From: Desulfosporosinus sp. BRH_c37
Lineage (GTDB): Bacteria > Bacillota > Desulfitobacteriia > Desulfitobacteriales > Desulfitobacteriaceae
Direction of reading: 5' to 3'
NCBI GenBank assembly: GCA_001516045.1
Contig: LOEW01000239.1
Location: 1 to 64,000 of the forward strand
Length of the DNA stretch: 64,000 bases
The notes under the pieces were generated by a model. It was not told the DNA's origin. It ran no database searches and saw only the letters and a list, made by a program, of their open reading frames with translations. Every line of letters begins with the position of its first letter. The stretch's first letter is position 1. Both the position numbers and the translations under genes were made by a program. Shown piece after piece: positions 5,411 to 61,651 of this stretch.

Positions 5411-8230
5411 ATGAAGGAAATAACACGACGTCGATTTTTGCAAGGAGCATCGGCCTTAGGAATTATGGGCGCGATTGCACCCCTTGCCTTTGCGGGAAAT
5501 GAAAACACAACTATCCCTAGTTGGCGGGAAGGAAATCCTCAAGGGGATACCCTGGATACGGATCCAAGTGTCAAGATGGTCCATTCCATTTGTCTTGGCT
5601 GTCATAGCGATTGTAATATCCGAGGAAAAGTTAAGGATGGAGTCTTGATCAAACTTGATGGCAATCCCTATAGTACGATGACTATGAATACTCCCCTGCC
5701 GTATAACACAGACCCCAAAGAAGCACGTAAATTTGCTGGCAAGCTTTGTCCGCGTGGGCAAGCTGGTGTTCAGATTCTCTATGATCCTCTACGTGTACCA
5801 CAACCTTTGAAACGGGCGGGGAAACGCGGGGAAAACAAATGGCAAGCGATTTCTTGGGAACAAGCCTATCAAGAAATCATCGAAGGTGGGAATCTCTTTG
5901 GGGAAGGAAATGTTGAGGGACTAAAGGGTGTTCGTGATCTCGTTACTCCCATAGATCCTGAAGCCCCAGAGTTAGGGACCAAAGCAAATCAGTTTGTCTT
6001 TTTAGCCGGACGGATCGAAGCAGGAAGGTCCGATTTAGCTAAGCGCTTTGTCAATGCAGCTTATGGGTCCATCAATTGGTTCGAGCACACCACAGTATGT
6101 GAACAAAGTCATCATATCTCCAGCGATCATACCTATGGCGGAACCCACCATTTGAAACCCGATTTTCAGAATGCTAAGTATATTCTTAACTTCGGCGCAA
6201 ACTATGGGGAGGGAAATTTCCCTATGAACCAATTGAGCCGTAAGATGACTGAATTCACAGCCAATGGTGGCAAGATGGTAACGATTGATCCCCGTTTCTC
6301 CGTGGCCGCCTCCAAATCGGCGGAATGGGTACCGGTTATTCCGGGGACGGATGCAGCCTTGATTATGGGCATGATTCAATGGATTCTTGAAAACAAACGT
6401 TTCGAAAAAAACTTTTTGGAAGCGCCTAATCAGCAGGCAGCAGCAAAAAGAGGAGAGAGCTCGTGGAGTGATGCAGGCTACCTAGTACGCTTAGATACTA
6501 AGAAATATTTGCGCGCTGATGAAGCAGGATTGCAAGGAACTGCGGAAGACTATGTTGTCCTTAGCTTGGGTCAACCTGGGTTAGCGAAAGAAGTGGATGC
6601 TGCTGATCTCTTGGGCGAAGTGGTGAGCGTCAATGGGATCGAATGTAAGACGGCCTTGCAACTTCTTTACGAACGTTCCAAAGAAAAAACGCTGGATGAG
6701 TATGCCAAGCTCTGTGACATCCCGCAAGAGACCATTGTGCGTCTAGCCGATGAGTTCACATCCTATGGTAAGTTGGCTGTGGCAGACTTTTATCGCAGCT
6801 TGGCACAACATACCAATGGGTTCCAAACCGGGAGGGCCATGTGTATCCTGAATCTTTTGGTAGGAAATATTGATCATCGGGGAGGGTATATTGCTGGTGG
6901 AAGCGCCTTAAGTGCCATGGGGGATAAGAATGGCAGATACCAGGTGGCGAAACTCCATCCAGGTGCGGTTAAACCGGCGGGCGTGAAAATCTCGCGCGAA
7001 GGCTTTGCTTATGAAAAAACCACGGAATTTAAAAAGAAGGGCTATCCAGCCCAAAGACCTTGGTTTCCCCTGACCAGTAATGTCTATCAGGAAGTCGTCG
7101 CGGGGGCCATGGATGCCTATCCTTATCCAATCAAAATCCTCTGGCTCCATATGGGAACCCCTGCCTGGGCGATTCCAGGCATGAAGGATAAAATCATCGC
7201 TGGTTTAAAAGATACGAAAAAGATACCCTTGTTTATCTCGACGGATATCGTCATTGGGGATACGACGATGTATGCAGACTATGTGTTGCCAGATGTGACA
7301 TATCTTGAACAATGGGGAGCTATGGGCGCTCCGCCAACGGTCGTGGGAGATGTTTCCTCAGTTCGCCAACCAATCACCAAAGCATTTCCGCAAGCCAAAT
7401 CCCTGGAAAACATCATGATCGACATGGCTAAGAAGATGGATTTGCCGGGCTTTGGGGATAATGGCTTTGGCGCAGGAATACCTTTAAATAAGGAAGACGA
7501 TTGGTTTCTTAAGTTGGTAGCTAACTTTGCTTCGCAAAATGGTAAAATTCCCGGGTCTACAGAGGAAGAACAAGTGCGTTATATTCTTGAGCGAGGTGGT
7601 GTCTTTGCAGATGACAGCAAGGGTTACGACCGGCTCATGATGAAAAAGAAAGTCGCCAAATTATGCACGATCTATGGGGAAAGAGTAGCTACGACGAAGG
7701 ACAGTATGACTGGAAAGGCGTTTGATGGGTTGCCCGCCTATATTCCTGTTCTGGATTCTAAGGATAATCCGATTCTGGATAAGGAGTATCCCTTCATTAC
7801 AAATACGTATAAAGTTTCCTTCCAAACCCATTCTCGAACCATCAGTGCCCCTTGGTTGACGGAAATTCTTCCGGAAAACTTCTTTGAATTAAATGATGAA
7901 GATGGAAGTAAGTTGGGTTTAAAAGATGGCGATTTGATCAAGGTGAGCAGTGCTACCAATAAGGAAGGGATTACTGGGAAAGTAAAACTTCGTCCGGGCA
8001 TCCGACCGGGAGTGATCTCTGCCTGTGTGGGCTTTGGGCATTGGCATTATGGTGCCGCGGACACCATCATCGATGGCAAGACTATCCTGGGAGACAAGAA
8101 ACGGGGGCTAGGAGTCAACATCAACTATGTCATGCGGGTTGATGAATCCGTTGGAAATACATGTTTGCAGGATAAGATCGGCGGAAGCTGTTCCTTCTAT
8201 GATTCTCGAGTTAAAGTAGAAAAAGCTTAA
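5411..8230 (+). CDS. ttrA: Tat-exported molybdopterin oxidoreductase, TtrA/SrdA clade
   Basis: A 939-residue catalytic subunit of the DMSO-reductase superfamily. A twin-arginine signal (TRRRFLQG, residues 5-12, with a hydrophobic stretch to an AFA cleavage region near 28) directs export. The cluster cysteines C61, C64, C68 and C113 follow CX2CX3CX44C. The stretch after C113 (PLRVPQPLKRAGKRG and EGGNLFGEG) resembles tetrathionate reductase TtrA and selenate reductase SrdA. C230 in HTTVCEQSHH is the likely molybdenum ligand. Respiratory arsenate reductase ArrA usually has a shorter final spacing (about 27), so ArrA is less likely. Tetrathionate, selenate, arsenate or antimonate all remain possible substrates. 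It lies in an operon with ttrB and ttrC, and the chaperone is upstream. Confidence 0.85.
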   Translation: MKEITRRRFLQGASALGIMGAIAPLAFAGNENTTIPSWREGNPQGDTLDTDPSVKMVHSICLGCHSDCNIRGKVKDGVLIKLDGNPYSTMTMNTPLPYNTDPKEARKFAGKLCPRGQAGVQILYDPLRVPQPLKRAGKRGENKWQAISWEQAYQEIIEGGNLFGEGNVEGLKGVRDLVTPIDPEAPELGTKANQFVFLAGRIEAGRSDLAKRFVNAAYGSINWFEHTTVCEQSHHISSDHTYGGTHHLKPDFQNAKYILNFGANYGEGNFPMNQLSRKMTEFTANGGKMVTIDPRFSVAASKSAEWVPVIPGTDAALIMGMIQWILENKRFEKNFLEAPNQQAAAKRGESSWSDAGYLVRLDTKKYLRADEAGLQGTAEDYVVLSLGQPGLAKEVDAADLLGEVVSVNGIECKTALQLLYERSKEKTLDEYAKLCDIPQETIVRLADEFTSYGKLAVADFYRSLAQHTNGFQTGRAMCILNLLVGNIDHRGGYIAGGSALSAMGDKNGRYQVAKLHPGAVKPAGVKISREGFAYEKTTEFKKKGYPAQRPWFPLTSNVYQEVVAGAMDAYPYPIKILWLHMGTPAWAIPGMKDKIIAGLKDTKKIPLFISTDIVIGDTTMYADYVLPDVTYLEQWGAMGAPPTVVGDVSSVRQPITKAFPQAKSLENIMIDMAKKMDLPGFGDNGFGAGIPLNKEDDWFLKLVANFASQNGKIPGSTEEEQVRYILERGGVFADDSKGYDRLMMKKKVAKLCTIYGERVATTKDSMTGKAFDGLPAYIPVLDSKDNPILDKEYPFITNTYKVSFQTHSRTISAPWLTEILPENFFELNDEDGSKLGLKDGDLIKVSSATNKEGITGKVKLRPGIRPGVISACVGFGHWHYGAADTIIDGKTILGDKKRGLGVNINYVMRVDESVGNTCLQDKIGGSCSFYDSRVKVEKA

Positions 8231-10040: not shown

Positions 10041-10074
10041 TTAATAACAATTAAAATTGGTAGGAGGGACAGGT

Positions 10075-11061
10075 ATGTTCTTTCCTAACTTAGCAAAGTC
10101 GCTGGGTGAATTTAGCACAGGAACAATATCCTGGCCGATAGCCATCGGTCTGATCATCATGATGTATCCACCCCTTGCCAAGGTAAAGTATGAAGAGATC
10201 GGAAAAGTTGTAGAAAATAAGAAAATCTTTTCCTTTTCGCTGATCCAAAACTGGATTATTGGTCCTATCTTAATGTTTGTGCTGGCTATTTTGCTGCTTG
10301 GAGATAAGCCTGGATTTGCGATTGGGCTGATTATCATAGGACTTGCTCGGTGTATTGCCATGGTTATTGTTTGGAATACCTTGGCTAAAGGTGATAACGA
10401 ATATTGTGCTGCTTTGGTAGCTCTTAACTCGATCTTCCAGATTCTTTTATACACGGTCTATATTTATATCTTTGTCACCCTCTTGCCAAAGTGGTTGGGA
10501 CTTTCCTGGGGAGGCCAGGTGGTAGACGTTTCAATGTGGGAAGTAGCAAAGAGTGTCCTTATTTATTTGGGTATTCCTTTTGCGGCAGGTTTTATGACAC
10601 GGTTTAGCTTAATACGAATTAAAACAAAAGAGTGGTACGAAAAGGTATTCATTCCGAAGAATTCTCCTTTAGCTTTGATCGCGCTGCTATATACCATTGT
10701 CATAATGTTTATTACCAAAGGGGAACAGATTATTAATAATCCTGGAGATGTCGTTAGAATTGCCATACCTATGTTAATTTACTTTGCCATTATGTTTTTT
10801 GTCAGCTTTTATATGTCCTATAAGGGCGGTTTCAGATATGACCAGACAGTAACCCTGGCGTTTACAGCAGCAAGTAATAATTTTGAACTGGCCATAGCGG
10901 TTGCGGTAGCTGTCTTCGGAATAGCATCGGATGTTGCTTTCACGGCGGTAATCGGTCCTTTAGTTGAAGTGCCAGTCTGGGGGTTACAGAGTAGAAGAGA
11001 CCACTCGTCGAATACGAGTGGTCTCTCTATCCTCCTAATGGTTGACAGTGTCAACCATTAG
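10075..11061 (+). pseudogene. acr3: Acr3 arsenite exporter, truncated at both ends
   Basis: The core closely matches the intact Acr3 at 58097: [33 protein letters not shown] with the conserved cysteine, and [20 protein letters not shown]. The first transmembrane segment (about 35 residues) is missing. After [10 protein letters not shown] the frame runs into unrelated hairpin sequence instead of the last membrane helix. A ribosome site (GGAGGGAC) stands before the ATG at 10075, so a shortened protein could still be made, but transport is doubtful. The unit is bounded by inverted repeats at 9991 and 11072. Confidence 0.8.
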
Positions 11062-11582: not shown

Positions 11583-12476
11583 GTGAACTCATTATCAAAT
11601 ACAATAAACTATTTTGTCTTTATCACGCTAGAACTCACAGTACTTTTTCTTGGGATTAGCACTTTGGTCGCTTTAGTACTCATGTACATACCACAGGAAA
11701 AAATTAAAAACTGGATGACAGGTAAGGGGATATGGGGTAATTTTATCGGGGCATCTATTGGCTCTTTGACACCTTTTTGTGCATGTTCGACGATTCCGAT
11801 GACGCTGGGCTTTCTTGAAGCTGGAGTACCCTTTGGTGCTGTTATGTCTTTCGTTATTTCCTCCCCGCTATTGAACCCTATAATATTGGCGATGTTAGTG
11901 GCCTTAATGGGCTTGCAAGCGGCTGTTATCTACTTCGTGGTCGTGTTTGGTGCTGCTATTGCTTTTGGTGTAATTTTACAAAAAGTGGGCGGATCGAAAC
12001 TGGTAAAGAATGTGAGGATTAAAGAGGGTGGGCATAAAGAAGATGAGGAAGTGCCTAAGGCTTTTTTAGGCAAGCTAAAAGTTTCCTTTAGGAAAGCATG
12101 GGGAGATTTTACGGCTGTCTTAGCGTATCTTCTGATCGGTGTAGGTATTGGAGCGGTCATCTATGGTTATCTACCTCAGGAGTTTGTCCTGAAATTCGCT
12201 GGCCCAACTAACCCAGTGGCCATTCCGATCGCAGCGGTTATCGGTATTCCTCTCTATATTCGTGCCGAAACAGCCATACCTATCGGCGTAGCCTTGATGC
12301 AGAAGGGTATGAGCGTTGGTGCTGTCATCGCTTTGATTATTGGCGGTGCGGGTATGGCGATTCCAGAGATGAGTATGTTGGCGAGTATTTTTAGAAAAAA
12401 GTTAGTGGGTGCTATTGTAGGAGTGATTTTTATTACAGCCGTACTGGGGGGTTATATTTTTAATATGATCTTATAA
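11583..12476 (+). CDS. ArsP/SO_0444-type permease
   Basis: A 297-residue membrane protein with about eight hydrophobic segments in two repeats, each with a conserved start: TPFCACSTIPMTLGFLEAGVP in the first and IGIPLYIRAETAIPIG in the second. This is the predicted-permease family that includes ArsP, an exporter of trivalent organoarsenicals. The cysteine pair in TPFCACS is the family hallmark. A central cytoplasmic loop (about residues 140-165) is highly charged. Translation starts at GTG after GGAGGGG. It lies with a MarR regulator and two small cysteine proteins, a typical ArsP-type operon. The substrate is inferred. Confidence 0.82.
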   Translation: MNSLSNTINYFVFITLELTVLFLGISTLVALVLMYIPQEKIKNWMTGKGIWGNFIGASIGSLTPFCACSTIPMTLGFLEAGVPFGAVMSFVISSPLLNPIILAMLVALMGLQAAVIYFVVVFGAAIAFGVILQKVGGSKLVKNVRIKEGGHKEDEEVPKAFLGKLKVSFRKAWGDFTAVLAYLLIGVGIGAVIYGYLPQEFVLKFAGPTNPVAIPIAAVIGIPLYIRAETAIPIGVALMQKGMSVGAVIALIIGGAGMAIPEMSMLASIFRKKLVGAIVGVIFITAVLGGYIFNMIL

Positions 12477-13852: not shown

Positions 13853-13916
13853 AATAACATAAACCATTTAAAACCGATGAGACAAGGATGATACTGTTTT
13901 AAAGGAGATGAATCAT

Positions 13917-14207
13917 GTGTCCCAAGAATTTCCAATGACTAGACTGGCTTTGAGTAATGATGAATACAAAATCCGCCAGGAAGCTAAACGCTATAAGGCC
14001 TTGGGGGATGAAACACGCCTTAAAATGTTCCGAGTCTTAGAAAAAGGAGAACTATGTGTCTGCGAACTGATGAATCACTTTCAGATGAACCAATCCGTAG
14101 CTTCACGTAATCTCAAGGTTTTGGAAAATGCGGGCTTGGTGGAGGGACTCAGAAGGGGGAAATTCGTCTATTACAGGATAGCGGAAGAGAGGGCGGACGG
14201 AATGTAA
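13917..14207 (+). CDS. arsR: ArsR-family repressor of permease operon (copy 1)
   Basis: A 96-residue ArsR repressor: ALGDETRLKMFRVL, then GELCVCELMNHFQ with the cysteine pair, the recognition helix NQSVASRNLKVLENAGLV and a basic wing. The GTG at 13917, nine bases after AAAGGAG, is preferred to the ATG at 13908 that abuts the box. The duplicate at 50615 has TTG at the same codon. It is followed by a permease and a CxxC redox protein, and it probably autoregulates this operon through the dyad at 13820. The duplicate differs at only a few residues. Confidence 0.85.
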   Translation: MSQEFPMTRLALSNDEYKIRQEAKRYKALGDETRLKMFRVLEKGELCVCELMNHFQMNQSVASRNLKVLENAGLVEGLRRGKFVYYRIAEERADGM

Positions 14208-14247: not shown

Positions 14248-15216
14248 GTGAGAGGACTGATTATTATGCTCCAAATGTTTGCTGATTATGTAGCATACAC
14301 ACTATTTGGGCTTCTACCGGACAGCCACCTTGGTGCCGCTGTTGACTTTTTTATCTATGATACGATTAAGATCTTTTTAATGTTAGGTACAATTATCTTT
14401 TTAGTTTCACTGATCCGTAGCTTTTTCCCACCGGAACGTACTAAGAAAATTTTAAGCCGTAAACGAGAATATGTTGGGAATATTATGGCGGCCTTGCTAG
14501 GGATCGTGACCCCGTTTTGTTCCTGCTCTGCAGTGCCGGTCTTTATCGGCTTTGTAGAATCTGGGGTACCCTTGGGGGTTACCTTTTCCTTCCTCATCTC
14601 TTCACCGATGGTGAACGAAGTGGCTTTGATTATGCTCTGGGGGATGTTTGGCTGGCAGATTGCAGCGATTTATATTACAACTGGGATTACCGTGGCCATT
14701 GTTGGCGGATTGGTGATTGGAAAACTTAAACTGGAACATTTGGTGGAGGGGTATGTTTACGACATCAAAATGGGCGAAACTGAATTGGCGGCCTTAACTT
14801 GGAGAGAACGGGTAGAATATGCTTGGGAATATGTTGTAGATATTCTGAAGAAGGTCTGGCCATATGTCATTATTGGGATAGCCATCGGCGGTGCTATGCA
14901 TGGCTATGCACCTGCTGATTTCTTGGTCAAATATGCTGGAAAGGATAATCTATTGGCTGTTCCTTTGGCAGTGCTCATCGGAGTACCTCTCTACTCCAAT
15001 GCGGCTGGGATCATTCCCATTGTCCATGTTCTGATGGAAAAAGGGATGGCATTGGGGACCGTTCTCGCTTTTATGATGGCTGTAACTGCTTTAAGTTTGC
15101 CAGAAATGATTATTTTACGCAAAGTTTTGAAACCCAAACTACTGGGTATTTTCGTTGGGATCATGACGGTGGCGATTATTTTTGTAGGGTATTTGTTCAA
15201 TGGGATACTTGCTTAA
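14248..15216 (+). CDS. ArsP/YraQ-type permease (copy 1)
   Basis: A 322-residue membrane protein of the same predicted-permease family as the gene at 11583, with two related halves, each of several membrane segments. Hallmarks are TPFCSCSAVPVFIGFVESGVP and IGVPLYSNAAGIIPIVHVLM. Near-identical to 50942-51910. The GTG at 14248 starts the track used here; an ATG at 14266 is an alternative. Members export organoarsenicals or are linked to thiol-metal stress. The operon with ArsR and a CxxC redox protein is a recurrent arrangement in anaerobes, suggesting metalloid efflux. The substrate is unproven. Confidence 0.8.
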   Translation: MRGLIIMLQMFADYVAYTLFGLLPDSHLGAAVDFFIYDTIKIFLMLGTIIFLVSLIRSFFPPERTKKILSRKREYVGNIMAALLGIVTPFCSCSAVPVFIGFVESGVPLGVTFSFLISSPMVNEVALIMLWGMFGWQIAAIYITTGITVAIVGGLVIGKLKLEHLVEGYVYDIKMGETELAALTWRERVEYAWEYVVDILKKVWPYVIIGIAIGGAMHGYAPADFLVKYAGKDNLLAVPLAVLIGVPLYSNAAGIIPIVHVLMEKGMALGTVLAFMMAVTALSLPEMIILRKVLKPKLLGIFVGIMTVAIIFVGYLFNGILA

Positions 15217-16233: not shown

Positions 16234-18087
16234 ATGTCTAAAATGACCAAAGGCCAAAGGATAATAATTTCGGGTCTACTGGTGGCAATATCCTTTATAT
16301 TAGACAAAACAATAGGCTATGAGATGGTAACCATTATCGTTATGATTGCTTCCACTATTGTGGCCGGTACCCCTATTTTTATGAAAGCGATTGGGGCGTT
16401 AAAGTACCGCATTGTCGGGATTGACGCCCTAGTAACTATAGCAGTGATTGGTGCGCTGTTTATTGGGGAATATTGGGAAGGAACGGCAGTGACCTTCCTA
16501 TTTATGTTTGGCGATTACTTAGAGTCTAGAACAATAGAAAAAACAAGGTCCTCCATAAAAGCCCTGTTTGATTTAGCGCCGGATACAACAAGAGTCCGAA
16601 GGAACGGAACAGAAGTGGAAATAAGTCCCGCAGAGGTGCTCAAAGGGGATCAAGTGGTCGTCAAACCCGGAGAGAAGATTTCTGTAGATGGTACGATTAT
16701 TGAGGGGTCCGCATATATCAATCAAGCAGCGATTACCGGGGAATCCATTCCTGTCAGTCGAGGGGTTGAAGAAACTGTCTTTTCAGGAACCATCATTGAA
16801 TCAGGGTATTTAGTGATTCGAGCCGACAAAGTAGGAGACGATACGACCTTTGCCAGAATCCTGCAAATGGTAGAAGAGGCACAGGATAAAAAGGCCAAGA
16901 CACAAAAATTCCTGGAGAAGTTTTCAAGATATTATACTCCGGCAATTATTGTGCTGGCAGTTCTATTCTATCTTTTTACGAAAGATGTTGTCTTGGCTTT
17001 AACCTTATTGGTCATCGCTTGCCCGGGAGCCCTAGTCATCTCTGCACCGGTATCCATAGTAGCAGGTATAGGAAATGGAGCAAAGCACGGGGTGCTGGTC
17101 AAGGGCGGAGAAATCATGGAGAAGCTAGGTACTATTAAGGTCATCGCCTTTGATAAAACAGGGACCTTAACCATAGGGAAGCCTGCGGTAAAGCATATTA
17201 AAACGTATGATATTGCCGAAAATGAATTGTTAAGGCTTGCGGCCATTGGAGAATTATATTCCGAGCACCCATTAGCAAAAGCAATTATCAACGAAGCAAC
17301 CCAAAAGCTTGGAGCTCTTAAGGAAGTGCCGGAAGAGGCTGAGCTCATAACGGGACAAGGCCTTTCGTTTAAATTCGGTGGGAAAACCTATTGGATTGGC
17401 AACAGAAAGCTATTCGAAGCAAATGGAATTAATATCGAAAATCAGGAAGAGTATTTAAGATCGGAAGAGAACAAAGGGCAAACAGCTGTCATTGTAGGAG
17501 ATAGGGAAAGAGTTCTTGGCATTATATCCATCGCGGATAGTGTGAGAGAGGATGCCAAGAAGCTGATTTCCGACCTGAAATCCCTGGGAATACAAAAGGT
17601 TGTTATGCTGACAGGGGATAATCAAAGGGCTGCTAAGGCAATATCCGATGAATTAGGTCTGGATGATTATTATGCGGAACTTCTTCCGGAGGATAAGGTG
17701 CGAGTGTTGGGTGAGCTTCAAGAAAAGCATGGCAAAACGGCTATGGTTGGAGATGGAGTCAATGATGCCCCTGCATTGGCCTCGGCGGATTTAGGGATTG
17801 CGATCGGTGGAGCGGGAACAGATGTAGCAATGGAAACAGCAGACGTAGTTCTCATGTCGGCAGAAGTAAAAAAACTAACTTATGCGATAGGCTTAAGCCG
17901 AGCCACTGTCAGGAACATGAAGCAAAATATTTACTTCGCACTATTTGTAGCCGCCTTACTGCTGGCAGGAGTCTTGGTTAAGACAGTAAATCTGTCCTTT
18001 GGTATGCTAATTCATGAGTTATCGGTGCTGTTGGTAATTATAAATGCAGTTAGGCTGATAGGATATGAAGAAAAGGGAAGCTTTTGA
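16234..18087 (+). CDS. P1B-type metal ATPase with CPG motif
   Basis: A 617-residue heavy-metal P-type ATPase without a metal-binding N-terminal domain. Standard signatures are visible: TGES (actuator), DKTGTLT with the phosphorylated aspartate, the HP of SEHPLAKA, and GDGVNDAPAL. The membrane motif reads C263-P264-G265 (IACPGALVIS) rather than CPC. The final helices carry an HELS motif in place of the DxG of Zn/Cd pumps or HEG of P1B-4 pumps. Six to eight membrane segments are visible. It is coupled to the CopZ-like gene and followed by a Crp/Fnr regulator. Direction is presumably efflux; the ion cannot be assigned. Confidence 0.88.
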   Translation: MSKMTKGQRIIISGLLVAISFILDKTIGYEMVTIIVMIASTIVAGTPIFMKAIGALKYRIVGIDALVTIAVIGALFIGEYWEGTAVTFLFMFGDYLESRTIEKTRSSIKALFDLAPDTTRVRRNGTEVEISPAEVLKGDQVVVKPGEKISVDGTIIEGSAYINQAAITGESIPVSRGVEETVFSGTIIESGYLVIRADKVGDDTTFARILQMVEEAQDKKAKTQKFLEKFSRYYTPAIIVLAVLFYLFTKDVVLALTLLVIACPGALVISAPVSIVAGIGNGAKHGVLVKGGEIMEKLGTIKVIAFDKTGTLTIGKPAVKHIKTYDIAENELLRLAAIGELYSEHPLAKAIINEATQKLGALKEVPEEAELITGQGLSFKFGGKTYWIGNRKLFEANGINIENQEEYLRSEENKGQTAVIVGDRERVLGIISIADSVREDAKKLISDLKSLGIQKVVMLTGDNQRAAKAISDELGLDDYYAELLPEDKVRVLGELQEKHGKTAMVGDGVNDAPALASADLGIAIGGAGTDVAMETADVVLMSAEVKKLTYAIGLSRATVRNMKQNIYFALFVAALLLAGVLVKTVNLSFGMLIHELSVLLVIINAVRLIGYEEKGSF

Positions 18088-18192
18088 AAAGAGGATTTTA
18101 CACTAGTTGTAAAGAAGGTTAAGCCAGGTAGATGAGTTCAGGTGAGAAGTTTCTCATCTGAACTTAGTTTATCTTGCAAGGAGGAGATATTT

Positions 18193-18873
18193 GTGAGTTG
18201 TAATTGCCGTAAAAGAGGTGTAAACAATTGTATAGAGATTGTGCCAATCTTTAGCCACTTAACTCAAGCAGAGATGTTGGAGATTGCAGCGATCACCACT
18301 GATAAAAGCTTTGAAAAAGGTGAAATGATCTATTTAGCGGGTAACAAAGGAGAAAAGCTATATGTGATACATACAGGAAGAGTCAAAATTTCTCGACTGA
18401 GCGCTAATGGGAAGGAACAAGTAATACGGATCCTTGGTCCGGGGGAATTCATGGGCGAGTTAGCCTTATTCAGTCCCTTGTCCATGACGGATAATGGAGA
18501 GGCCATAGAGTCATCCACCATGTGTATGATAGAAGGTGTCAAACTCAAAGAGCTGATGAAAAAATACCCCTCTATAGCATTCAAGGTCATGGAGGAGTTA
18601 AGTAAGAGATTGGATAGAGTAGAGAATCTCATCGAGGATATCAATTTATATTCAGTAGAACAGAGATTGGCGCAAGCTTTATTAAAGATGTCCAATGGTA
18701 AGTGCGAGGTAGTGCTGAGTATGACGAAGGGAGATTTAGCCTCTCAACTAGGTATGAGCCAGGAAACTTTAAGCAGAAAGCTATCCTTGTTCCAAGAACG
18801 GGGACTAATCGAGTTAATAGGTCATAGAAGGATAATTATCCTCGATAGAGATAGCTTATATGAGGTGGTATAA
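18193..18873 (+). CDS. Crp/Fnr-family regulator with N-terminal cysteines
   Basis: A 226-residue regulator with a cyclic-nucleotide-type beta barrel (about residues 20-130; GRVKISRLSANGKEQVIRILGPGEFMGELALFS) and a C-terminal helix-turn-helix (TKGDLASQLGMSQETLSRKLSLFQERGLI). The N-terminus has cysteines at residues 3, 5 and 13, and another cysteine lies near 130 (STMCMIEG), a pattern that could hold an oxygen- or NO-sensitive Fe-S cluster as in FNR. The GTG start follows AAGGAGGAG. It lies between the P-ATPase and the lipoyl/DGC locus and could control either. Confidence 0.85.
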   Translation: MSCNCRKRGVNNCIEIVPIFSHLTQAEMLEIAAITTDKSFEKGEMIYLAGNKGEKLYVIHTGRVKISRLSANGKEQVIRILGPGEFMGELALFSPLSMTDNGEAIESSTMCMIEGVKLKELMKKYPSIAFKVMEELSKRLDRVENLIEDINLYSVEQRLAQALLKMSNGKCEVVLSMTKGDLASQLGMSQETLSRKLSLFQERGLIELIGHRRIIILDRDSLYEVV

Positions 18874-19345: not shown

Positions 19346-19351
19346 GTGCGA

Positions 19352-20752
19352 GTGATCGATAAAAAGGATCAATCAATACATATCTGCATTCTTGGCGGCG
19401 GCCCTGCAGGATATGTAGCGGCAATACGGGCAGCTCAGTTGGGCGCCAAAGTGACCCTTGTTGAGGATAGAGAGGTTGGAGGAACTTGCCTTAATCGGGG
19501 ATGTATTCCGACTAAAGCACTATTGAAAACAGCGGAAGTCTTATCAATGATCAGTAAGTCTAAGGAATTGGGCATCGCCTCAGCAGTTTCGTCGGTCGAT
19601 GCAAGTGTTGGCAAGGCCAGGAAGGATCGAGTGGTAAAAAGTCTGAGGATGGGTGTAGAGCACTTGCTTGCCAAGAATGGGGTTGAAGTATTACGGGGCA
19701 AGGGTTGGATTGAATCCCCACAAAGGGTAACTGTAAAAACCTCGGACGGAGAAGTTGCAGTCAATTGTAACAGGTTGATTATTACTACAGGTTCAGAACC
19801 CTTAATCCCAGATATACCTGGCGTTATGTTAGATGGAGTTATGTCCAGCGATGAGGCTCTTGAACTAACGAAAGTCCCAGAAAGTATAACCATCATAGGG
19901 GCTGGGGCTATCGGGATGGAATTTGCGACTCTGTTTAATTCGTTGGGTTCCAAGGTTAATGTGGTCGAATTTCAAGAGACGATTCTACCGAGTGAAGACA
20001 AGGAAATTACAGCAGAACTCTTGAAGATCATGAAGAGGCAAGGAATTAAATTTTTGCTGGCAGCGAAGGTTAAGGAGATTTGCAAATCTGAGAATGGACT
20101 GGAGATCCTGGTCAAGGTAGGAGAAAAGGAAGTATCCCTACTCACAGAAAGGGTTCTTGTTGCCGTCGGAAGAAAGTTGGGGGGGTTATCACCGGACATC
20201 AGCGCTCTGGGTATCGAGGTGAAGAAAGGTGCTATCGTGGTTAATGAGAGTATGGAAACCAAGGTGACCGGGGTTTATGCGGCTGGTGATGTGATCGGCG
20301 GCAGTCTTCTGGCGCATTTGGCTTTTGCCGAGGGTCGAATAGCTGCTGAAAATGCCATGGGCATGCCAAGCAGACTGAATTACAGGGCTGTGCCTGCTTG
20401 TGTGTATACCAATCCGGAAGTGGCGTCGGTTGGTTTAAGTGAAGATCAAGCGATAGCCAAGGGCCTTACAGTTAAAGTTGGGCGCTTTGATTTTCGGAAT
20501 AATGGCAGGGCCTTATGTCATGGGGAGAGGGAGGGATTTGTTAAGGTCATAACCGAGGAGGGCACCGGGGTTATTCTTGGTGCGCGGATTCTGGGACCTC
20601 ATGCGTCGGAATTAATTTCCGAAATAACTCTAGCCGTTAGCCTTGGGGTTAAAGCAGAAGTCCTGGCAGACATGATCCATCCCCATCCAGCATTGGCTGA
20701 AGCAGTGATGGAGGCGTGTGGTGATGCCATAGGCAGGGCAATTCATAAATGA
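19352..20752 (+). CDS. lpdA: Dihydrolipoyl dehydrogenase
   Basis: A 466-residue flavoprotein disulfide reductase. The FAD-binding GGGPAGYVAAIRAAQLG, the redox disulfide GGTCLNRGCIPTKALL, the NAD-binding GAGAIGMEFATLFNSLGSKV, the second FAD motif GVYAAGDVIGG and the C-terminal HPHPALAEAVMEA with the catalytic His-Glu pair are all present, so it should be active. GTG at 19352 is five bases after GGGAGG. No 2-oxoacid dehydrogenase or glycine cleavage genes are near; the only lipoyl-type domain in the window is in the DGC-GcvH fusion at 21551. It therefore probably reoxidises or reduces that lipoyl group. The dithiol target would also be sensitive to arsenite. Confidence 0.93.
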   Translation: MIDKKDQSIHICILGGGPAGYVAAIRAAQLGAKVTLVEDREVGGTCLNRGCIPTKALLKTAEVLSMISKSKELGIASAVSSVDASVGKARKDRVVKSLRMGVEHLLAKNGVEVLRGKGWIESPQRVTVKTSDGEVAVNCNRLIITTGSEPLIPDIPGVMLDGVMSSDEALELTKVPESITIIGAGAIGMEFATLFNSLGSKVNVVEFQETILPSEDKEITAELLKIMKRQGIKFLLAAKVKEICKSENGLEILVKVGEKEVSLLTERVLVAVGRKLGGLSPDISALGIEVKKGAIVVNESMETKVTGVYAAGDVIGGSLLAHLAFAEGRIAAENAMGMPSRLNYRAVPACVYTNPEVASVGLSEDQAIAKGLTVKVGRFDFRNNGRALCHGEREGFVKVITEEGTGVILGARILGPHASELISEITLAVSLGVKAEVLADMIHPHPALAEAVMEACGDAIGRAIHK

Positions 20753-21264: not shown

Positions 21265-21558
21265 ATGTCTGAAGAAACCTTCATGGGGGTTCCGAGAAAT
21301 ACCATCGACTGGAGTCCGATTATTGACTTTGACAAATGTAACTACTGTATGGAGTGCGTAAAATTTTGTCCTCACCAAGTGTATGAAGTCCGGGAAACCG
21401 AGGAGCAAAAGCTGATTGTAAAAAATCCGGACAACTGCGTTGTCTTCTGCCGAGCATGTGGTAAAACCTGCGGTGTGGATGCCCTGACCTTCCCAGATAA
21501 AGGAGCGACCACCAAGAAGATCAAGGAAACTCGAAAGGGGATGGCAGGCAATGAGTAA
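21265..21558 (+). CDS. Two-cluster ferredoxin-like protein
   Basis: A 97-residue protein with CNYCMECVKFCP, a normal [4Fe-4S] motif, and a second, modified set CVVFCRACGKTCGVDA. It overlaps the DGC-GcvH gene by eight bases, so expression is coupled. Likely partner of the HdrA-like protein. A second ferredoxin of different sequence ends the cluster at 23425. Confidence 0.82.
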   Translation: MSEETFMGVPRNTIDWSPIIDFDKCNYCMECVKFCPHQVYEVRETEEQKLIVKNPDNCVVFCRACGKTCGVDALTFPDKGATTKKIKETRKGMAGNE

Positions 21559-22423
21559 AAGCTTTGCTGTCTTACCTTGTAATGGGCTAGATAAAGGCGC
21601 TGGCTGTATCGCCCGGGAAATAGCGTTAAACCTTATCGAGAAATCCGATAGTGAGATGATTTGTCCTGTTCTATATCGGATTGCGGATGCCAGATACAAT
21701 AAAATCGCTCAAGAAAAACCACTGCTCGTGATTGACGGCTGTCAGACGCGATGTGCCAGCAAGCTTGCTTCGGAAAAAGGTTTAAAAGTTACGGCTAAAG
21801 TAACGGTAACAGAAGAAGCAAAAACCAGGGGGTTTGAGCTGGGAGACTCCTTAAGGCTCGGAGAAAATGACCTGAAACTGGCCGGGCTGGTTGCCGATGA
21901 ATTACTGCTGGAGACGGAGACGCAAAAGTCGCCAGGAAGTGAAACTACAGCAGAAAGCGCATCACTCTACCCTGAGACCTATGATTATGAAGTTTATAAA
22001 AAAGACAAATTTATATTCAGAGTGCCCAAAGAAGGCCTGTTATTCAATGAAAATGACAGTTGGGTCTATATATCGGGCAATAAGGCTCGGGTAGGGGTTA
22101 CGGATTATGTCCAGCAAAGCTTGTCGGATATCATGTTCTTTACCCCACCGGTGGTGGGGAGTGACGTGGAACAGTTCGGGGAGTTAGGCGCGATTGAGTC
22201 AGGGAAGGCTGTTTTCGAAGTCGTCTCCCCGGTATCAGGTAAGATCATCGCTGTTAATGAAGAACTTTCGGTAGCCCCAGAACTCATTAATCAGAATCCC
22301 TATGAAAAAGGTTGGATTGCCGAAGTGGAACTCTCCGATTTGGAAAATGATAAAGAATTGCTGCTTGAGTTTGAGGGATATTTCACGATTCTAAAAAGAA
22401 AGGTCGATGATTTTCATGTCTGA
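21551..22423 (+). CDS. DGC-domain and GcvH/lipoyl-carrier fusion
   Basis: A 290-residue two-domain protein. Residues 1-118 are a DGC (putative zinc-binding) domain: LPC at C10, C19, the name-giving IDGCQTRCA at 61-69. After a flexible linker (about 120-140), residues 141-290 read like glycine cleavage H protein: RVGVTDYVQQSLSDIMFFTPP, then ESGKAVFEVVSPVSGKI with the lysine K219 at the lipoylation position, and the typical YEKGWIAEVEL near the end. No P, T or L2 glycine cleavage genes are near, but lpdA is 800 bases upstream. A lipoyl arm fixed to a cysteine domain suggests thiol or sulfur transfer. The fusion itself is directly visible; the function is inferred. Confidence 0.85.
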   Translation: MSKSFAVLPCNGLDKGAGCIAREIALNLIEKSDSEMICPVLYRIADARYNKIAQEKPLLVIDGCQTRCASKLASEKGLKVTAKVTVTEEAKTRGFELGDSLRLGENDLKLAGLVADELLLETETQKSPGSETTAESASLYPETYDYEVYKKDKFIFRVPKEGLLFNENDSWVYISGNKARVGVTDYVQQSLSDIMFFTPPVVGSDVEQFGELGAIESGKAVFEVVSPVSGKIIAVNEELSVAPELINQNPYEKGWIAEVELSDLENDKELLLEFEGYFTILKRKVDDFHV

Positions 22424-22817
22424 GACGATTAAAGTAATCCCCTGCAGTGGGATGGGTAAGGTCTATGGCCTTGTGGCGAGGGAAAGCGCGTTGAAGGTTG
22501 TTCAGGAGTTGTGTCCGAAGGAATCGAGCACGGTATGCCTCGCCTATATCGTAACGGGGGATCCAGAAGCTAAGGAATTGATCGAGGGAGAAAAGTGTAT
22601 TACCCTCGATGGTTGCCCTGCCATGTGTGCGGCTAAAAATGCAGAGTTGGCAGGTGGCATCGTCGCGGAAAAGATAAGGGTTGTCGATTCGTTTCGGAAA
22701 CACAAAGGAGTCAAGCCAGGAACCGCGACGGAACTCACAGAGGAAGGCTGGTTAATTGCGGATGAAATCGCCGGTGAGATAGCCGAAAAGGTTAAATTAT
22801 TGAGTAGGGAGGGTTAA
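22416..22817 (+). CDS. DGC-domain putative zinc-binding protein
   Basis: A 133-residue single DGC domain with C10 in VIPCSGMGK and LDGCPAMCAAKNAELAG. It overlaps the fusion gene by eight bases. ATG at 22416 gives the same MSxxxxVxPC start as its neighbour; an ATG at 22407 is also possible and closer to AGAAAGG. It closely resembles the DGC half of the fusion and probably arose from it or acts beside it. Family function is unknown; metal or persulfide binding is likely from the cysteines. Confidence 0.82.
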   Translation: MSETIKVIPCSGMGKVYGLVARESALKVVQELCPKESSTVCLAYIVTGDPEAKELIEGEKCITLDGCPAMCAAKNAELAGGIVAEKIRVVDSFRKHKGVKPGTATELTEEGWLIADEIAGEIAEKVKLLSREG

Positions 22818-22819
22818 AG

Positions 22820-23314
22820 ATGTCCATAAATATGGTGAAAATAGGTGTTGTATCCTGTAGCGGTGAGGACTGTTTGGGAGGAACGATCTCAAGATTGGCA
22901 ACCCGGAAAATGCTGGACGAAGTTCGTCCCAACGCGACCGTGACAATATGTCTGCCCCTTTTTCTAGCAGGCGGCGTGGAAGAACGAGGATTTGCTGAAC
23001 AGTTCCCAACGATCTCTGTGGACGGATGCTCCAAGGCTTGCGCCAAAAGGGCTACGGAGAAATATAGTGGTAAGGTGAGTGCTGCAATTGACGTTTCGGA
23101 TTTGATCGGCAAAGAAGTTGCCGAAGCAGGGGCCTTGTCCACCAGAAACCTAACGGATGAACACAAAGCCATGGTCGAAAAGTTGGCCAGTGAGATAACA
23201 ACTAAGTTTGACGAAGTATTGAGGGTCGCGCAAAGAGATCAAGTGGCAAAAGGTCTGGCCATGGTGGGAGGGAGATCCTCTGGGGGCTGCGGCTGCGGGT
23301 GCGGGCCGAAGTAA
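22820..23314 (+). CDS. DGC-domain protein with Cys-Gly tail
   Basis: A 164-residue DGC protein: VVSCSGEDCLGG near the start, then VDGCSKACAKR, and a C-terminal GGCGCGCGPK. The gene begins two bases after the stop of the previous DGC gene. The Cys-Gly tail resembles the tails of the ferredoxin at 23425, ArsD at 59480 and the DUF2703-like protein at 12831. An unrelated open segment with the NKIDHTEEE tail follows at 23323. Confidence 0.82.
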   Translation: MSINMVKIGVVSCSGEDCLGGTISRLATRKMLDEVRPNATVTICLPLFLAGGVEERGFAEQFPTISVDGCSKACAKRATEKYSGKVSAAIDVSDLIGKEVAEAGALSTRNLTDEHKAMVEKLASEITTKFDEVLRVAQRDQVAKGLAMVGGRSSGGCGCGCGPK

Positions 23315-23424: not shown

Positions 23425-23667
23425 ATGACGACAAAGTGGTATCCAATTATTAATTACGATAATTGCATTGAATGTGGGTCCTGTATTAATAAATGCTCAC
23501 ACGGTGTTTACGAAAAGGACAGCGCAAAGCCTGTCGTGATCTATCCTGAGGGATGTATTGATCACTGCACTGGTTGTCAGGCTTTATGTCCGGCAGAAGC
23601 AATTAGCTATTTCGGAGATGACGGAAATAAGACCGGAAACACGACCTGCAGCTGTGGTTGTGGATAA
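23425..23667 (+). CDS. Ferredoxin with CSCGCG tail
   Basis: An 80-residue ferredoxin with CIECGSCINKC and CIDHCTGCQALCP, enough for two [4Fe-4S] clusters, and a C-terminal CSCGCG tail. Good GGAG ribosome site. Followed after 29 bases by the HesB-like gene, so a role in cluster assembly or electron delivery within the same operon is plausible. Confidence 0.85.
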   Translation: MTTKWYPIINYDNCIECGSCINKCSHGVYEKDSAKPVVIYPEGCIDHCTGCQALCPAEAISYFGDDGNKTGNTTCSCGCG

Positions 23668-31864: not shown

Positions 31865-32209
31865 ATGAATATTGGAATTTTCCCTTGCCAAGGCCGATGT
31901 AATGTCAGTATGATGACAAAAACGGTGGCTGAATTTTTCGTTGATGACGAAATAATACGTGTACTACCTCATTTAAGTTTACCTCTTGAAAACGAAAGTG
32001 GGGTTAAGGAAAAGTATATTGCCCTTAATGGCTGCCCAGCAAAATGTGCTTCTAAGGAATTTGATCTCGCCAGAATTAAACCAGATGAGGAAATCGTTAT
32101 GACTAAGGATTTTGATCCAAAAAACAATGAAAAATATGCAGAGTTGTTAAATATTGATGAAGAGGTATTCTTAGTGCAGGAAGTGATCGAACGATTATTG
32201 GGTTCGTAA
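31865..32209 (+). CDS. DGC-like protein, NGC variant (copy 1)
   Basis: A 114-residue protein of the DGC/putative zinc-binding group: FPCQGRCNVSMMTK at the start and LNGCPAKCASKEF in place of DGC. Near-identical to 62032-62379. It lies before xdhC with 23 bases between. Repeated presence near arsenic genes suggests a role in thiol or metalloid handling, unproven. Confidence 0.78.
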   Translation: MNIGIFPCQGRCNVSMMTKTVAEFFVDDEIIRVLPHLSLPLENESGVKEKYIALNGCPAKCASKEFDLARIKPDEEIVMTKDFDPKNNEKYAELLNIDEEVFLVQEVIERLLGS

Positions 32210-39105: not shown

Positions 39106-39543
39106 TTATTTGAGTTCCTCAATCTTACCAAGGATCTTTTGTGTAATTTCAGACATCTTCTCTTGATCAAAATCAGGTCCCGGTTTCTTGTCAAGATTAA
39201 AATCTTCGTCCAAAACATAGCTCAAATCGACTTTAACGCCAACCTTCTCCAGAGCCTTCTTTAGACATCGGGCTTCACACCCATCGATGACAACCTGATA
39301 GTCATCGTACAATAAAACCTGGCTTGGCCCTTCAATTTCGGGAAAAAGGGCCAGCGGGCACCTCATAAAGGCATTAGGTATAGCCTTAACAATCTCCCTA
39401 GGAATAAATCCGCTCATTTGCCCTAAGTTTGAACTCCCAAAACATCCGTTGACTCCAATTGTTTTCCCGAATTGCTCATGTTGAGCCAGGATGGTTTTTT
39501 TGGCCATCTCCATTTTGATTTCTTGAACTGGTTTCTTTTCCAT
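39106..39543 (-). CDS. DGC-domain putative zinc-binding protein
   Basis: A 145-residue DGC protein: GVNGCFGSSNLGQMSGFIPRE, MRCPLALFPEIEG and VIDGCEARCLKKALEK. ATG at 39543 after GAGGAGG. It follows the DHA2 transporter gene on the same strand with a 76-base gap, so it may be the last gene of the CMD-MFS-DGC operon. The second MFS/CMD copy at 52864 has no DGC gene after it. Confidence 0.8.
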   Translation of the reverse strand: MEKKPVQEIKMEMAKKTILAQHEQFGKTIGVNGCFGSSNLGQMSGFIPREIVKAIPNAFMRCPLALFPEIEGPSQVLLYDDYQVVIDGCEARCLKKALEKVGVKVDLSYVLDEDFNLDKKPGPDFDQEKMSEITQKILGKIEELK

Positions 39544-39619
39544 GTTATAACCTCCTCGAATTATTATCTTAGTTTTTAAGTTGTTCACACTATGTGCATA
39601 TAACGGTAACGGAATAGGA

Positions 39620-41041: not shown

Positions 41042-41219
41042 ATTCTTAACAACCTCCTTAGTCAATGCTGAGTACGGCTTGAACCACAGCATTCGTTACC
41101 TGTTCATCATATTTTTCAACCCGGCGATATACTGGCTAAGCAAAGGAGCGCGGCACGATTGTAGCCTAAGATGTTCGCTGTTTTTTTGTGTGTTACAAGA
41201 GTGTAGTTTACCTAGGAAT

Positions 41220-50941: not shown

Positions 50942-51910
50942 ATGAGAGGACTGATTATTATGCTCCAAATGTTTGCTGATTATGTAGCTTACACACTATT
51001 TGGGCTTCTACCGAACAGCCACCTAGGTGCCGCTGTTGACTTTTTTATCTATGACACGATTAAGATTTTTTTAATGTTGGCCACGATCATCTTTTTGGTT
51101 TCACTGATCCGTAGCTTTTTCCCGCCTGAACGTACTAAGAAAATTTTAAGCCGTAAACGAGAATATATTGGGAATATTATGGCGGCCTTGCTAGGGATCG
51201 TGACCCCGTTTTGCTCCTGTTCAGCAGTGCCGGTTTTTATCGGCTTTGTAGAATCTGGGGTACCCTTGGGGGTTACCTTTTCCTTTCTTATCTCTTCGCC
51301 GATGGTAAACGAAGTGGCTTTGATCATGCTCTGGGGGATGTTTGGCTGGCAGATTGCAGCGATTTACATCGCTACTGGAATTACTGTCGCCATTATCGGG
51401 GGATTGGTGATAGGAAAACTTAAACTAGAACATCTGGTGGAAGGGTATGTATACGACATCAAAATGGGCGAAACTGAATTGGCGGCATTAACTTGGAGAG
51501 AACGGGTAGAATATGCTTGGGAATATGTTGTGGACATTCTGAAAAAGGTCTGGCCGTATGTCATTATTGGGATAGCCATCGGTGGCGCAATGCATGGCTA
51601 TGCACCTGCTGATTTCCTAGTCAAATATGCTGGAAAGGATAACCTGCTTGCTGTTCCATTGGCAGTGCTTATCGGAGTGCCACTCTATTCCAATGCAGCT
51701 GGGATCATTCCCATTGTCCATGTACTGATGGAAAAAGGGATGGCTTTAGGTACGGTTCTCGCCTTCATGATGGCCGTTACCGCTTTAAGTTTGCCGGAAA
51801 TGATTATTCTACGCAAAGTTTTAAAACCCAAACTGCTTGGCATTTTCGTGGGGATCATGACGGTGGCGATTATTTTTGTAGGGTATTTGTTTAATTGGAT
51901 ACTTGTTTAA
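50942..51910 (+). CDS. ArsP/YraQ-type permease (copy 2)
   Basis: A 322-residue permease nearly identical to 14248-15216, including TPFCSCSAVPVFIGFVESG. Almost all differences are silent or conservative, so both copies look under selection. The last residues differ slightly (NWILV against NGILA). ATG start. Confidence 0.82.
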   Translation: MRGLIIMLQMFADYVAYTLFGLLPNSHLGAAVDFFIYDTIKIFLMLATIIFLVSLIRSFFPPERTKKILSRKREYIGNIMAALLGIVTPFCSCSAVPVFIGFVESGVPLGVTFSFLISSPMVNEVALIMLWGMFGWQIAAIYIATGITVAIIGGLVIGKLKLEHLVEGYVYDIKMGETELAALTWRERVEYAWEYVVDILKKVWPYVIIGIAIGGAMHGYAPADFLVKYAGKDNLLAVPLAVLIGVPLYSNAAGIIPIVHVLMEKGMALGTVLAFMMAVTALSLPEMIILRKVLKPKLLGIFVGIMTVAIIFVGYLFNWILV

Positions 51911-54285: not shown

Positions 54286-54444
54286 ATTCTTAACCCCCTT
54301 AGTCAATACTGAGGACAGCTTGGACCACGGCATTCGTAACCTGTACACTTTTTTCGAGTTTAAGAACCCAGAATGACCGCTTTAACTTCAGCTCACTGAT
54401 CTGAAAAGCATGGGCTAATTCGGTCATTCTCGGGTTGGAAGGGT

Positions 54445-59914: not shown

Positions 59915-61651
59915 ATGCAGATTTTTAATCCACAGAAGATTATGCTGACAAACTATTTATTTTACACCGGCAAAGGCGGTGTCGGGAAAACTTCGACCGC
60001 TTGTGCGACTGCAGTGAACCTTGCGGACAGTGGTAAGAAGGTGCTTCTCATCAGCACTGATCCTGCTTCAAATTTGCAGGACGTTTTTGAGACGGAGCTG
60101 ACGAATAAAGGGGTTCCCATCAAAGAAGTGCCAAATCTAGTGGTCGCCAACCTTGATCCCATCCAGGCGGCAGCGGAATACAGAGAAAGTGTCATCTCAC
60201 CCTACCGTGGCAAACTGCCCGATGCCGTGCTTAACAATATGGAAGAGCAGCTTTCCGGCTCTTGTACGGTTGAAATTGCTGCCTTCAACGAGTTTTCCAA
60301 CTTTATAACCGATGAAAAAACGCAATTGGACTACGACCATGTTATTTTTGATACCGCTCCGACAGGTCATACCCTCAGGATGCTGCAGCTACCCTCTGCC
60401 TGGAGCAACTTCATTAGTGAAAGCACTCACGGTGCCTCTTGCTTGGGACAGCTATCCGGCTTGGAAAGCAAAAAAGAGATTTATAAAAAGGCTGTTGAAA
60501 CCTTAGCCGACGGCAAATTGACAACCCTCATTCTCGTTTCACGTCCCGAAGCAGCACCTCTTAAAGAAGCAGAACGAGCGTCAAAAGAGCTGGCGGAGAT
60601 TGGTGTCAACAATCAGGTAATGATCATTAATGGTGTGTTAACCTCGTATGATGACAGTATTTCTGAGAGTCTCTATCAAAAGCAGCAGAAAGCGCTGGTT
60701 GACATACCGCAGGGTTTACAAACCCTTACTACTTACATGGTGCCGCTCAGAGCCTATAACATTACAGGTATGGACAATGTAAGAGCCTTGCTGACGAAGG
60801 ATAATTATATCCTCCGTGAGGAGCGGATACAGGCTCAGGAAATCCCTCAGCTTAAGGATGTCATAGAGGATCTCGATCATACGCATAAGAAGGTTATCTT
60901 TACCATGGGCAAAGGGGGAGTGGGAAAGACGACCATCGCGGCAGCGATTGCTATGGGATTGTCCGCCAGAGGTAAGAAGGTACACCTTACCACCACTGAT
61001 CCTGCGGCCCATCTCAAATTCGTCCTCGAGGAAACTAGTGGCATCACCATGAGTCATATTGACGAGCAGGCTGAACTGAACAAGTATCAAGTGGAAGTGC
61101 TTGCCAAGGCCAGAGAAACCATGTCCGAGGAGGATATAGCCTATATCGAGGAAGATTTGCGCTCCCCTTGTACCCAGGAGATTGCCGTGTTCAGAGCTTT
61201 TGCCCAGATTGTGGAAAAGGCCGAAGATCAAGTCGTTGTTATCGATACGGCCCCGACTGGTCATACGCTTCTGTTGCTAGACTCCACGCAGAGCTACCAT
61301 AAGGAAATTCAGCGTTCCCAAGGCGACATTCCCGAATCTGTGAAAAATCTACTGCCACGGCTCCGCAATGTAGACGAAACCGAGGTCATCATTGTTACGC
61401 TTGCTGAAGCCACACCCGTGTATGAAGCAATGCGTCTCGAAGAGGATTTGAAACGTGCAGGGATCGCGACGAAATGGTGGGTCATCAATTCTTCCCTGTA
61501 TCATACAGGTACAACGAATCAACTGCTGTCTGCCAAGGCCAGCAACGAGATTGAGTGGATCAACAAAGTGGATAAACATTCGGAGGGGAACTTTGCCGTC
61601 ATCGCGTGGAGTGCGGATGAAATCAAAGGGGATAAGTTGCTTACCTTGTGA
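59915..61651 (+). CDS. arsA: ArsA arsenical pump ATPase
   Basis: A 578-residue ATPase with two homologous halves, each with a P-loop (GKGGVGKTSTACA; GKGGVGKTTIAAA) and DTAPTGHTL signal-transduction domain. Cysteines in GSCTVE, ASCLGQL and SPCTQE probably form the metalloid site. It uses ATP to drive an efflux permease; with Acr3 rather than ArsB it makes an Acr3-ArsA pump, a pairing known from other bacteria. A fragment of its end lies at 43793. Confidence 0.95.
   Translation: MQIFNPQKIMLTNYLFYTGKGGVGKTSTACATAVNLADSGKKVLLISTDPASNLQDVFETELTNKGVPIKEVPNLVVANLDPIQAAAEYRESVISPYRGKLPDAVLNNMEEQLSGSCTVEIAAFNEFSNFITDEKTQLDYDHVIFDTAPTGHTLRMLQLPSAWSNFISESTHGASCLGQLSGLESKKEIYKKAVETLADGKLTTLILVSRPEAAPLKEAERASKELAEIGVNNQVMIINGVLTSYDDSISESLYQKQQKALVDIPQGLQTLTTYMVPLRAYNITGMDNVRALLTKDNYILREERIQAQEIPQLKDVIEDLDHTHKKVIFTMGKGGVGKTTIAAAIAMGLSARGKKVHLTTTDPAAHLKFVLEETSGITMSHIDEQAELNKYQVEVLAKARETMSEEDIAYIEEDLRSPCTQEIAVFRAFAQIVEKAEDQVVVIDTAPTGHTLLLLDSTQSYHKEIQRSQGDIPESVKNLLPRLRNVDETEVIIVTLAEATPVYEAMRLEEDLKRAGIATKWWVINSSLYHTGTTNQLLSAKASNEIEWINKVDKHSEGNFAVIAWSADEIKGDKLLTL

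Follow-up and report, generated by a model that had tools for sequence, protein, structure and literature searches.

The window analysed here, a stretch of 64,000 nucleotides from Desulfosporosinus sp. BRH_c37, encodes a protein in which a DGC domain is joined to a domain resembling the lipoyl-carrying H-protein of glycine cleavage (GcvH). The DGC family (PF08859) is labelled 'putative zinc-binding', and the question raised by this locus is what such a domain does in one polypeptide with a lipoyl carrier.

Architecture and distribution of the fusion

A sequence-only reading had assigned residues 1-118 of this protein to DGC and residues 141-290 to a GcvH-like domain with a lysine, K219, at the lipoylation position, an assignment that is borne out by profile searches and structure prediction. 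Pfam places DGC (PF08859) at residues 6-92 with 69.0 bits against a cut-off of 27 (E 4.2e-19) and GCV_H (PF01597) at residues 164-282 with 110.5 bits against a cut-off of 22.2 (E 6.4e-32), both far above the thresholds, and the AlphaFold model, built on 26 homologs and with a mean pLDDT of 84.3, contains two confident domains and between them a linker of low confidence (residues 121-138), in agreement with the proposed limits. Another fold without a lipoyl lysine was considered for the C-terminal half, and what was found is GcvH: structures of this protein occupy Foldseek ranks 1-22 (best E 1.8e-13, TM by target up to 0.93) and VIA-align superposes the half on pea H-protein 1htp with Z 21.8 and 1.1 A over 131 residues. 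The alignment with canonical GcvH (ESGKAVFEVVSPVSG in the fusion against ESVKA..PVSG) puts K219 at the lipoylation position, the residue is a lysine in 35/35 fusions, and by homology it is almost certainly the site that would carry lipoate. The four cysteines C10, C38, C64 and C68 are likewise retained in all 35 fusions, C64 and C68 lying within DGC..RC, the DGCxxxC signature of the DGC family. For the DGC domain itself, VIA-align returned only weak Rossmann-like structure neighbours, including ArsH and flavodoxins (Z of 7.2 at most).

Full-length fusions occur in many other genomes at 52-90% identity, and 35 fused loci were collected, for the most part from Clostridia, with Desulfosporosinus, Clostridium, Caloramator, Sedimentibacter, Fusibacter and Lucifera among the hosts; a species-representative genome collection holds 26 loci with a full-length fusion. 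Of 60 near relatives 8 carry the fusion, as do 9 of 398 genomes sampled across the phylum; both counts include the window's own genome, and this sparse and patchy distribution is as expected of an accessory trait. A frameshift or assembly-join artefact is ruled out by the 35 loci, the full-length homologs and the single clade that they form. In a tree of the carriers, the fused H-domains group together in one clade (support 100/98) to which none of 23 other GcvH proteins from these genomes belongs, indicating a single origin of the fusion in this sample. Unfused carriers found near arsenic genes, described below, are likewise a clade of their own (100/98), distinct from other GcvH. Fused and unfused carriers share one side of a branch supported at 82/76, with a long-branch warning, and we therefore do not claim that the two arsenic forms arose from one ancestor. 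The carrier motif is ES[GS]K, or ET-I-K in five of the six unfused proteins, and ESVKA in housekeeping GcvH. A plasmid search with the whole fusion protein returned separate GcvH genes only. At one locus (L085:8297-8710, G189) an ORF of 137 aa, which starts like the fusion and ends like the first stand-alone DGC protein (DGC1), occupies the fusion-DGC1 position of its relatives, apparently because an in-frame deletion joined the two paralogous DGC parts and removed the lipoyl domain.

The operon and its setting in the genome

Clustering of ORFs, which were called by a simple length rule under which small genes may be missed and on flanks some of which end at contig ends, revealed a recurring block in most fused loci, in the order dihydrolipoamide dehydrogenase (DLD), HdrA N-domain (HdrA-N), ferredoxin, DGC-GcvH, DGC and DGC (Table 1). 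In the window the genes are tightly packed, with overlaps of 8 bases between ferredoxin and fusion and of 17 bases between fusion and DGC1, and a gap of 2 bases between DGC1 and the second DGC protein (DGC2).

Table 1. Features of the window, with coordinates, strand and the basis of each assignment
Feature	Position	Strand	Basis
Acr3 arsenite efflux pump, ~11 kb upstream	10057..11061	+	TIGR00832, 396.8 bits vs cut-off 282.8
Further ArsP-family permease	11583-12476		
ArsR-type repressor, CVC motif	13908..14207	+	PF01022 match C239:14007
ArsP-family permease	14248..15216	+	BLAST cluster shared with L043:4321-5325 (PF03773 ArsP_1)
Crp/Fnr-type regulator located upstream, a candidate for control of the operon	18142..18873	+	cNMP_binding, HTH_Crp_2
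DLD/E3 (dihydrolipoamide dehydrogenase), operon gene 1	19346..20752	+	TIGR01350, 514 bits vs cut-off 408.8
HdrA N-terminal-domain protein, free-standing, 124 aa	20888..21262	+	Foldseek, alignment, weak sequence matches
Two-cluster [4Fe-4S] ferredoxin	21265..21558	+	Fer4_10, E 1.1e-7; Cys motif in 25/25 homologs
DGC-GcvH fusion, 290 aa, ATG start	21551..22423	+	Pfam, AlphaFold, Foldseek, VIA-align, alignment
DGC domain of fusion, residues 1-119, invariant C10, C38, C64, C68	21551..21907	+	PF08859, model
H-protein (lipoyl carrier) part of fusion, residues 141-290	21971..22420	+	PF01597, Foldseek, VIA-align
K219 codon (predicted lipoyl lysine)	22205..22207	+	K in 35/35 fusions; canonical GcvH alignment
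Stand-alone DGC protein 1	22407..22817	+	PF08859, E 2.9e-13; same position in most loci
Stand-alone DGC protein 2	22820..23314	+	PF08859, E 3.2e-16
Second ferredoxin, possible extra operon member	23425..23667	+	Fer4_10, E 2.7e-7
Second Acr3	58097-59173		TIGR00832
ArsA arsenical pump ATPase	59915..61651	+	TIGR04291, 844.6 bits vs cut-off 650

The DLD carries the redox disulfide GGTCLNRGCIPTK and the base motif HPHPALAEA, both of which are kept in 27/29 homologs. The second gene, whose start was set at 20888 by conservation (20843 in the ORF list), encodes the N-terminal domain of HdrA alone; this identification is weak by sequence, with an NCBIfam HdrA match confined to residues 22-108 (E 4.6e-5, far under the cut-off) and 7bkb HdrA as the best, weak phmmer match in the PDB (E 0.0012), and is supported by fold, Foldseek ranks 1-7 being HdrA chains without exception. 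Its alignment contains five invariant cysteines (C12, C14, C18, C49 and C72), candidate ligands for a [4Fe-4S] cluster. DGC2 ends in a cysteine-rich tail, GCGCGCGPK, which recurs in several homologs. No HdrB/HdrC or full HdrA was found among the conserved operon genes of the fused loci. HdrA-N and the ferredoxin are absent from the unfused version of the gene set and were not found at some fused loci, and they are therefore not essential to the shared core.

The genome contains a second copy of the operon on contig C204, with a fusion 89% identical to that of the window and with DLD, LplA, ArsR genes and a cysteine desulfurase as neighbours. The LplA gene, about 6 kb from this copy, is the sole match in the genome above the TIGR00545 cut-off. 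Of the 26 ArsR-type genes of this genome, 15 are located on the two contigs bearing operon copies.

Further features of the window were recorded around the operon. Three near-identical gene pairs, encoding ArsP-type permeases (14248-15216 and 50942-51910), sensor histidine kinases (1604-2866 and 56032-57294) and MFS transporters (39620-41092 and 52864-54348), make the arsenic island look internally duplicated. A molybdopterin oxidoreductase with ferredoxin and NrfD-like partners (5411-8230) was considered as ArrA; it falls far below the cut-off, is closest to TtrA (tetrathionate reductase; 549 bits against a cut-off of 1750) and is not a typical arsenate respiratory reductase. A P-type metal ATPase (16234-18087) has the membrane motif ACPGAL, a position at which related pumps usually have CPC. 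The ORF at 15562-15891 matches the C-terminal half of the DGC domain only (23.1 bits, under the cut-off) and is probably a decayed or divergent DGC gene within the arsenic island, and further stand-alone DGC genes at 31865-32209, 39106-39675 and 62044-62310 stand beside XdhC, an MFS transporter and ArsA, respectively; the window thus holds 7 of the 11 DGC matches of its genome.

Arsenic genes around fused and unfused forms

The genomic link of the fusion to acr3 exceeds chance. Of 27 fused loci 14 have an acr3 gene within 22 kb, against none of 30 other GcvH loci in these genomes (P 2.6e-6). In each of the eight single-contig genomes the distance between fusion and acr3 is 4.1-20.7 kb; the product of the chance probabilities for these eight, 3e-19, is overstated since four of them share one genus. 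Of the 35 fused loci, 29 have an ArsR-type gene within about 10 kb, in nine cases immediately upstream of the block, and the encoded proteins bear a CVC or CAC motif, which we take to be typical of As(III)/Sb(III) sensors. ArsM is encoded near three fused loci; in L069 its gene is flanked by two ArsR genes and closely precedes HdrA-N. The association is not uniform: no Acr3 was detected at E 1e-40 in 6 of 33 fusion genomes, none of Acr3, ArsP, ArsM and ArsC was found within about 10 kb at 14 of the 35 fused loci, several flanks being truncated, and in the window no ArsR gene adjoins the operon and the nearest Acr3 is about 11 kb off. Taken as a whole, the gene context strongly implies a role in arsenic handling.

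A survey of stand-alone DGC genes, together with a search with the unfused carrier, located a parallel, unfused arrangement near acr3 in six genomes (L077, L080 and L122-L125). GcvH is present in 6/6 of these loci, and DLD, a DGC-DGC-OsmC series and lipoate synthesis or ligation genes in 5/6 each. The order GcvH, DGC, DGC, OsmC is found in L077, L080, L122, L123 and L124, followed by DLD in the first four, the L124 contig stopping after OsmC; LipA and LipM-like genes come next in L077 and L080, and LplA in L122 and L123. L125 has GcvH, LplA and DLD around acr3 without DGC. The carrier gene adjoins acr3 on the same strand in L080, L123, L124 and L125. LipA and LplA score above their NCBIfam cut-offs where tested (L077, L080 and L122), and the LipM-like proteins resemble the large subunit of lipoate ligase. 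A third arrangement of DGC and lipoyl carrier is a row of ArsR, DGC, DGC, two small biotin/lipoyl-domain proteins and LplA (L072:15620-18080), a few kb from the fusion operon of the same genome.

DGC and the lipoyl carrier are thus linked in either arrangement, fused or unfused, and the lipoate genes of the unfused loci indicate that lipoate supply often belongs to the package. In this regard, the earlier suggestion that the fusion ties DGC to lipoate chemistry is upheld by the DLD encoded just upstream, by LplA near 10 of the 35 fused loci and by the unfused relative of the gene set with its own LipA/LipM or LplA. LplA proximity was rejected as a sign specific to the fusion, with 9 of 27 fused and 8 of 30 other GcvH loci having the gene nearby. 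The arsenic link, which that reading did not contain, is a more informative clue to DGC function than the lipoate link. Among 13 DGC neighbourhoods, the stand-alone genes of L081-L083 have no arsenic gene alongside, and the DGC family is therefore not exclusively arsenical.

A proposed lipoyl relay and its alternatives

Arsenic is believed to inhibit lipoyl enzymes by acting on their reduced lipoate (PMC6453569), and relays in which electrons of NADH pass by way of DLD and a lipoyl protein to a protein with reactive cysteines, such as AhpD or OsmC/Ohr, are established (PMC8945050). On the grounds of this known arsenic target, of these relays and of the recurring OsmC and AhpD-like genes, it is proposed that the DGC-GcvH operon encodes a dedicated lipoyl-dithiol module for arsenic handling, recharged by DLD and with DGC as its cysteine partner, a proposal that we consider probable. 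A fuller version, on which our judgement is nearly balanced and leans slightly to the cautious side, is a lipoate-dependent arsenic pathway with its own lipoate enzymes and DLD, in which the dithiol arm binds or reduces arsenic and hands it to DGC and the arsenite pump. Lipoate would be placed on K219 by LplA or by a LipM/LipA-type route, and DLD would hold the lipoyl arm in the dihydro form using NADH, with HdrA-N and ferredoxin probably providing an extra low-potential entry or exit for electrons in the fused version only. The dihydrolipoyl dithiol, a classical arsenite ligand, could swing between DLD and the four-cysteine DGC sites, available in cis on the fusion and in trans on the two DGC proteins, at which the arm would carry arsenic or reduce it to As(III), and the product would exit via Acr3/ArsP-type pumps or be methylated by ArsM. 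What we infer is lipoylation itself, the direction of electron flow, the placement of arsenic on the lipoyl arm with DGC as its acceptor, and the type of reaction, be it carriage of As(III), reduction of As(V) or the supply of electrons to peroxidases. Among the matches of the L069 ArsM is NCBIfam NF041537, an ArsM fused to an AhpD domain (a selenoprotein); AhpD is a lipoyl-dependent reductase, and this fusion hints at lipoate in arsenic methylation as well.

The supply of electrons to peroxidases could also be the whole function, the carrier, DLD and DGC passing electrons from NADH to AhpD/OsmC-type proteins in response to arsenic-linked oxidative stress and never contacting arsenic. AhpD and OsmC/Ohr are reduced via lipoyl proteins and DLD (PMC8945050), OsmC belongs to five unfused operons and AhpD-like genes lie near 6 of the 35 fused loci; however, most hosts are strict anaerobes, neither gene occurs at most fused loci, the constant partner is DGC and no peroxidase, and it is acr3 and arsR that the gene order tracks, which makes this explanation unlikely. 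We see an equally low probability for a sulfur relay of the sHdr/LbpA kind, with sulfane sulfur on the lipoyl arm, perhaps making or breaking thioarsenicals, and with HdrA-N and ferredoxin accepting the electrons. Although HdrA-N, lipoyl carrier, DLD and lipoate genes as a set resemble sHdr (PMC6067878), and a cysteine desulfurase is encoded near 9 of the 35 fused loci, the Se/S-carrier DUF3343 in five and a rhodanese at L077, the conserved operon genes include neither HdrB/HdrC nor a full HdrA, the desulfurase genes are confined to a minority of loci, and the link to acr3 and arsR is left unexplained unless the substrate is a thioarsenical.

Two further explanations dispense with a relay. A spare H-protein, DLD and lipoate might serve as a decoy that sequesters As(III), or stand in for lipoyl enzymes that have been inactivated, in keeping with the standing of lipoyl enzymes as the classical arsenite target (PMC6453569) and with the LipA, LipM and DLD genes of the unfused arsenic operons. 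The carrier, however, constitutes a separate clade with its own motif and is no copy of the housekeeping ESVKA form, and neither the fixed DGC fusion nor the co-transcribed DGC pair would have a role, so that we regard this possibility as very improbable. Least probable of all, and barely credible, is an ordinary glycine cleavage H-protein that acquired a DGC domain by accident. The protein does share with GcvH the fold and clear GCV_H domain, the lipoyl lysine and the PVSG and NPYE.GW-type motifs, yet it differs in its separate clade, its DGC part, its ES[GS]K motif and the lack of GcvP/GcvT. It falls below the gcvH equivalog cut-offs (TIGR00527, 106.8 against 115.85; NF002270, 114.2 against 117), no gcvP or gcvT was found near the fusion, the fusion is conserved in 35 loci, and a canonical gcvT-gcvH-gcvPA-gcvPB set is encoded elsewhere in the host genome, on contig C225, where the genes for LipS1, LipS2 and a lipoyl/octanoyl transferase-like protein come after it. 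Assignment as the glycine cleavage H-protein was rejected on the sub-threshold score, the absence of neighbouring gcvP/gcvT and the host's own gcvH.

With ars operons (ArsR, Acr3/ArsP, ArsC, ArsM, ArsA) the lipoyl-dithiol module proposed here shares loci and the same ArsR-type regulators. Neither lipoyl carriers nor enzymes of lipoate synthesis are, to our knowledge, among the ars gene products described so far, and open-licence PMC papers yielded none. With known PF08859 proteins it shares the domain and the DGCxxxC signature, and it differs from them in that DGC shares a polypeptide or a transcript with a lipoyl carrier, the first partner to hint at its chemistry. The likeness to LbpA/sHdr (PMC6067878) extends to a GcvH-like lipoyl carrier outside glycine cleavage, an HdrA-related protein, nearby lipoate ligase or synthesis genes and, in archaeal clusters, DLD, whereas here only the N-domain of HdrA is present, HdrB/HdrC are missing from the conserved genes, and the carrier is fused to DGC and tied to acr3/arsR instead of sulfur oxidation; judged by HdrB/HdrC, the gene set falls outside sHdr. 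Lipoyl thiol-peroxidase relays (DLD, lipoyl-E2 and AhpD; Ohr/OsmC; PMC8945050) have the same chain of NADH, DLD, lipoyl protein and cysteine protein, and OsmC or AhpD-like genes at part of the DGC/carrier loci, but the present set has a dedicated H-protein paired with DGC in an arsenic gene setting. No description of a DGC/GcvH/lipoate system linked to acr3 was found in the open-licence PMC literature, and because there is no described match and both glycine cleavage and sHdr membership fail, the gene set is judged to be new, a judgement made on genomic evidence.

In conclusion, DGC and a lipoyl carrier, as one protein or as several, stand near arsenic genes in many anaerobic bacteria and suggest an undescribed, lipoate-using system for handling arsenic. 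Lipoate is the textbook victim of arsenic, and if the proposal is true, the cofactor that is arsenic's main target becomes a tool for handling it and DGC proteins acquire a first function. That arsenic operons encode a lipoyl carrier together with DLD and a lipoate synthase or ligase suggests that some anaerobes have adapted the same chemistry for detoxification, which may add a role for lipoate to those in dehydrogenases, glycine cleavage and sulfur oxidation, and may be relevant to arsenic mobilisation in anoxic, metal-rich sediments. For the uncharacterised DGC family, it provides a concrete partner and a substrate to test.
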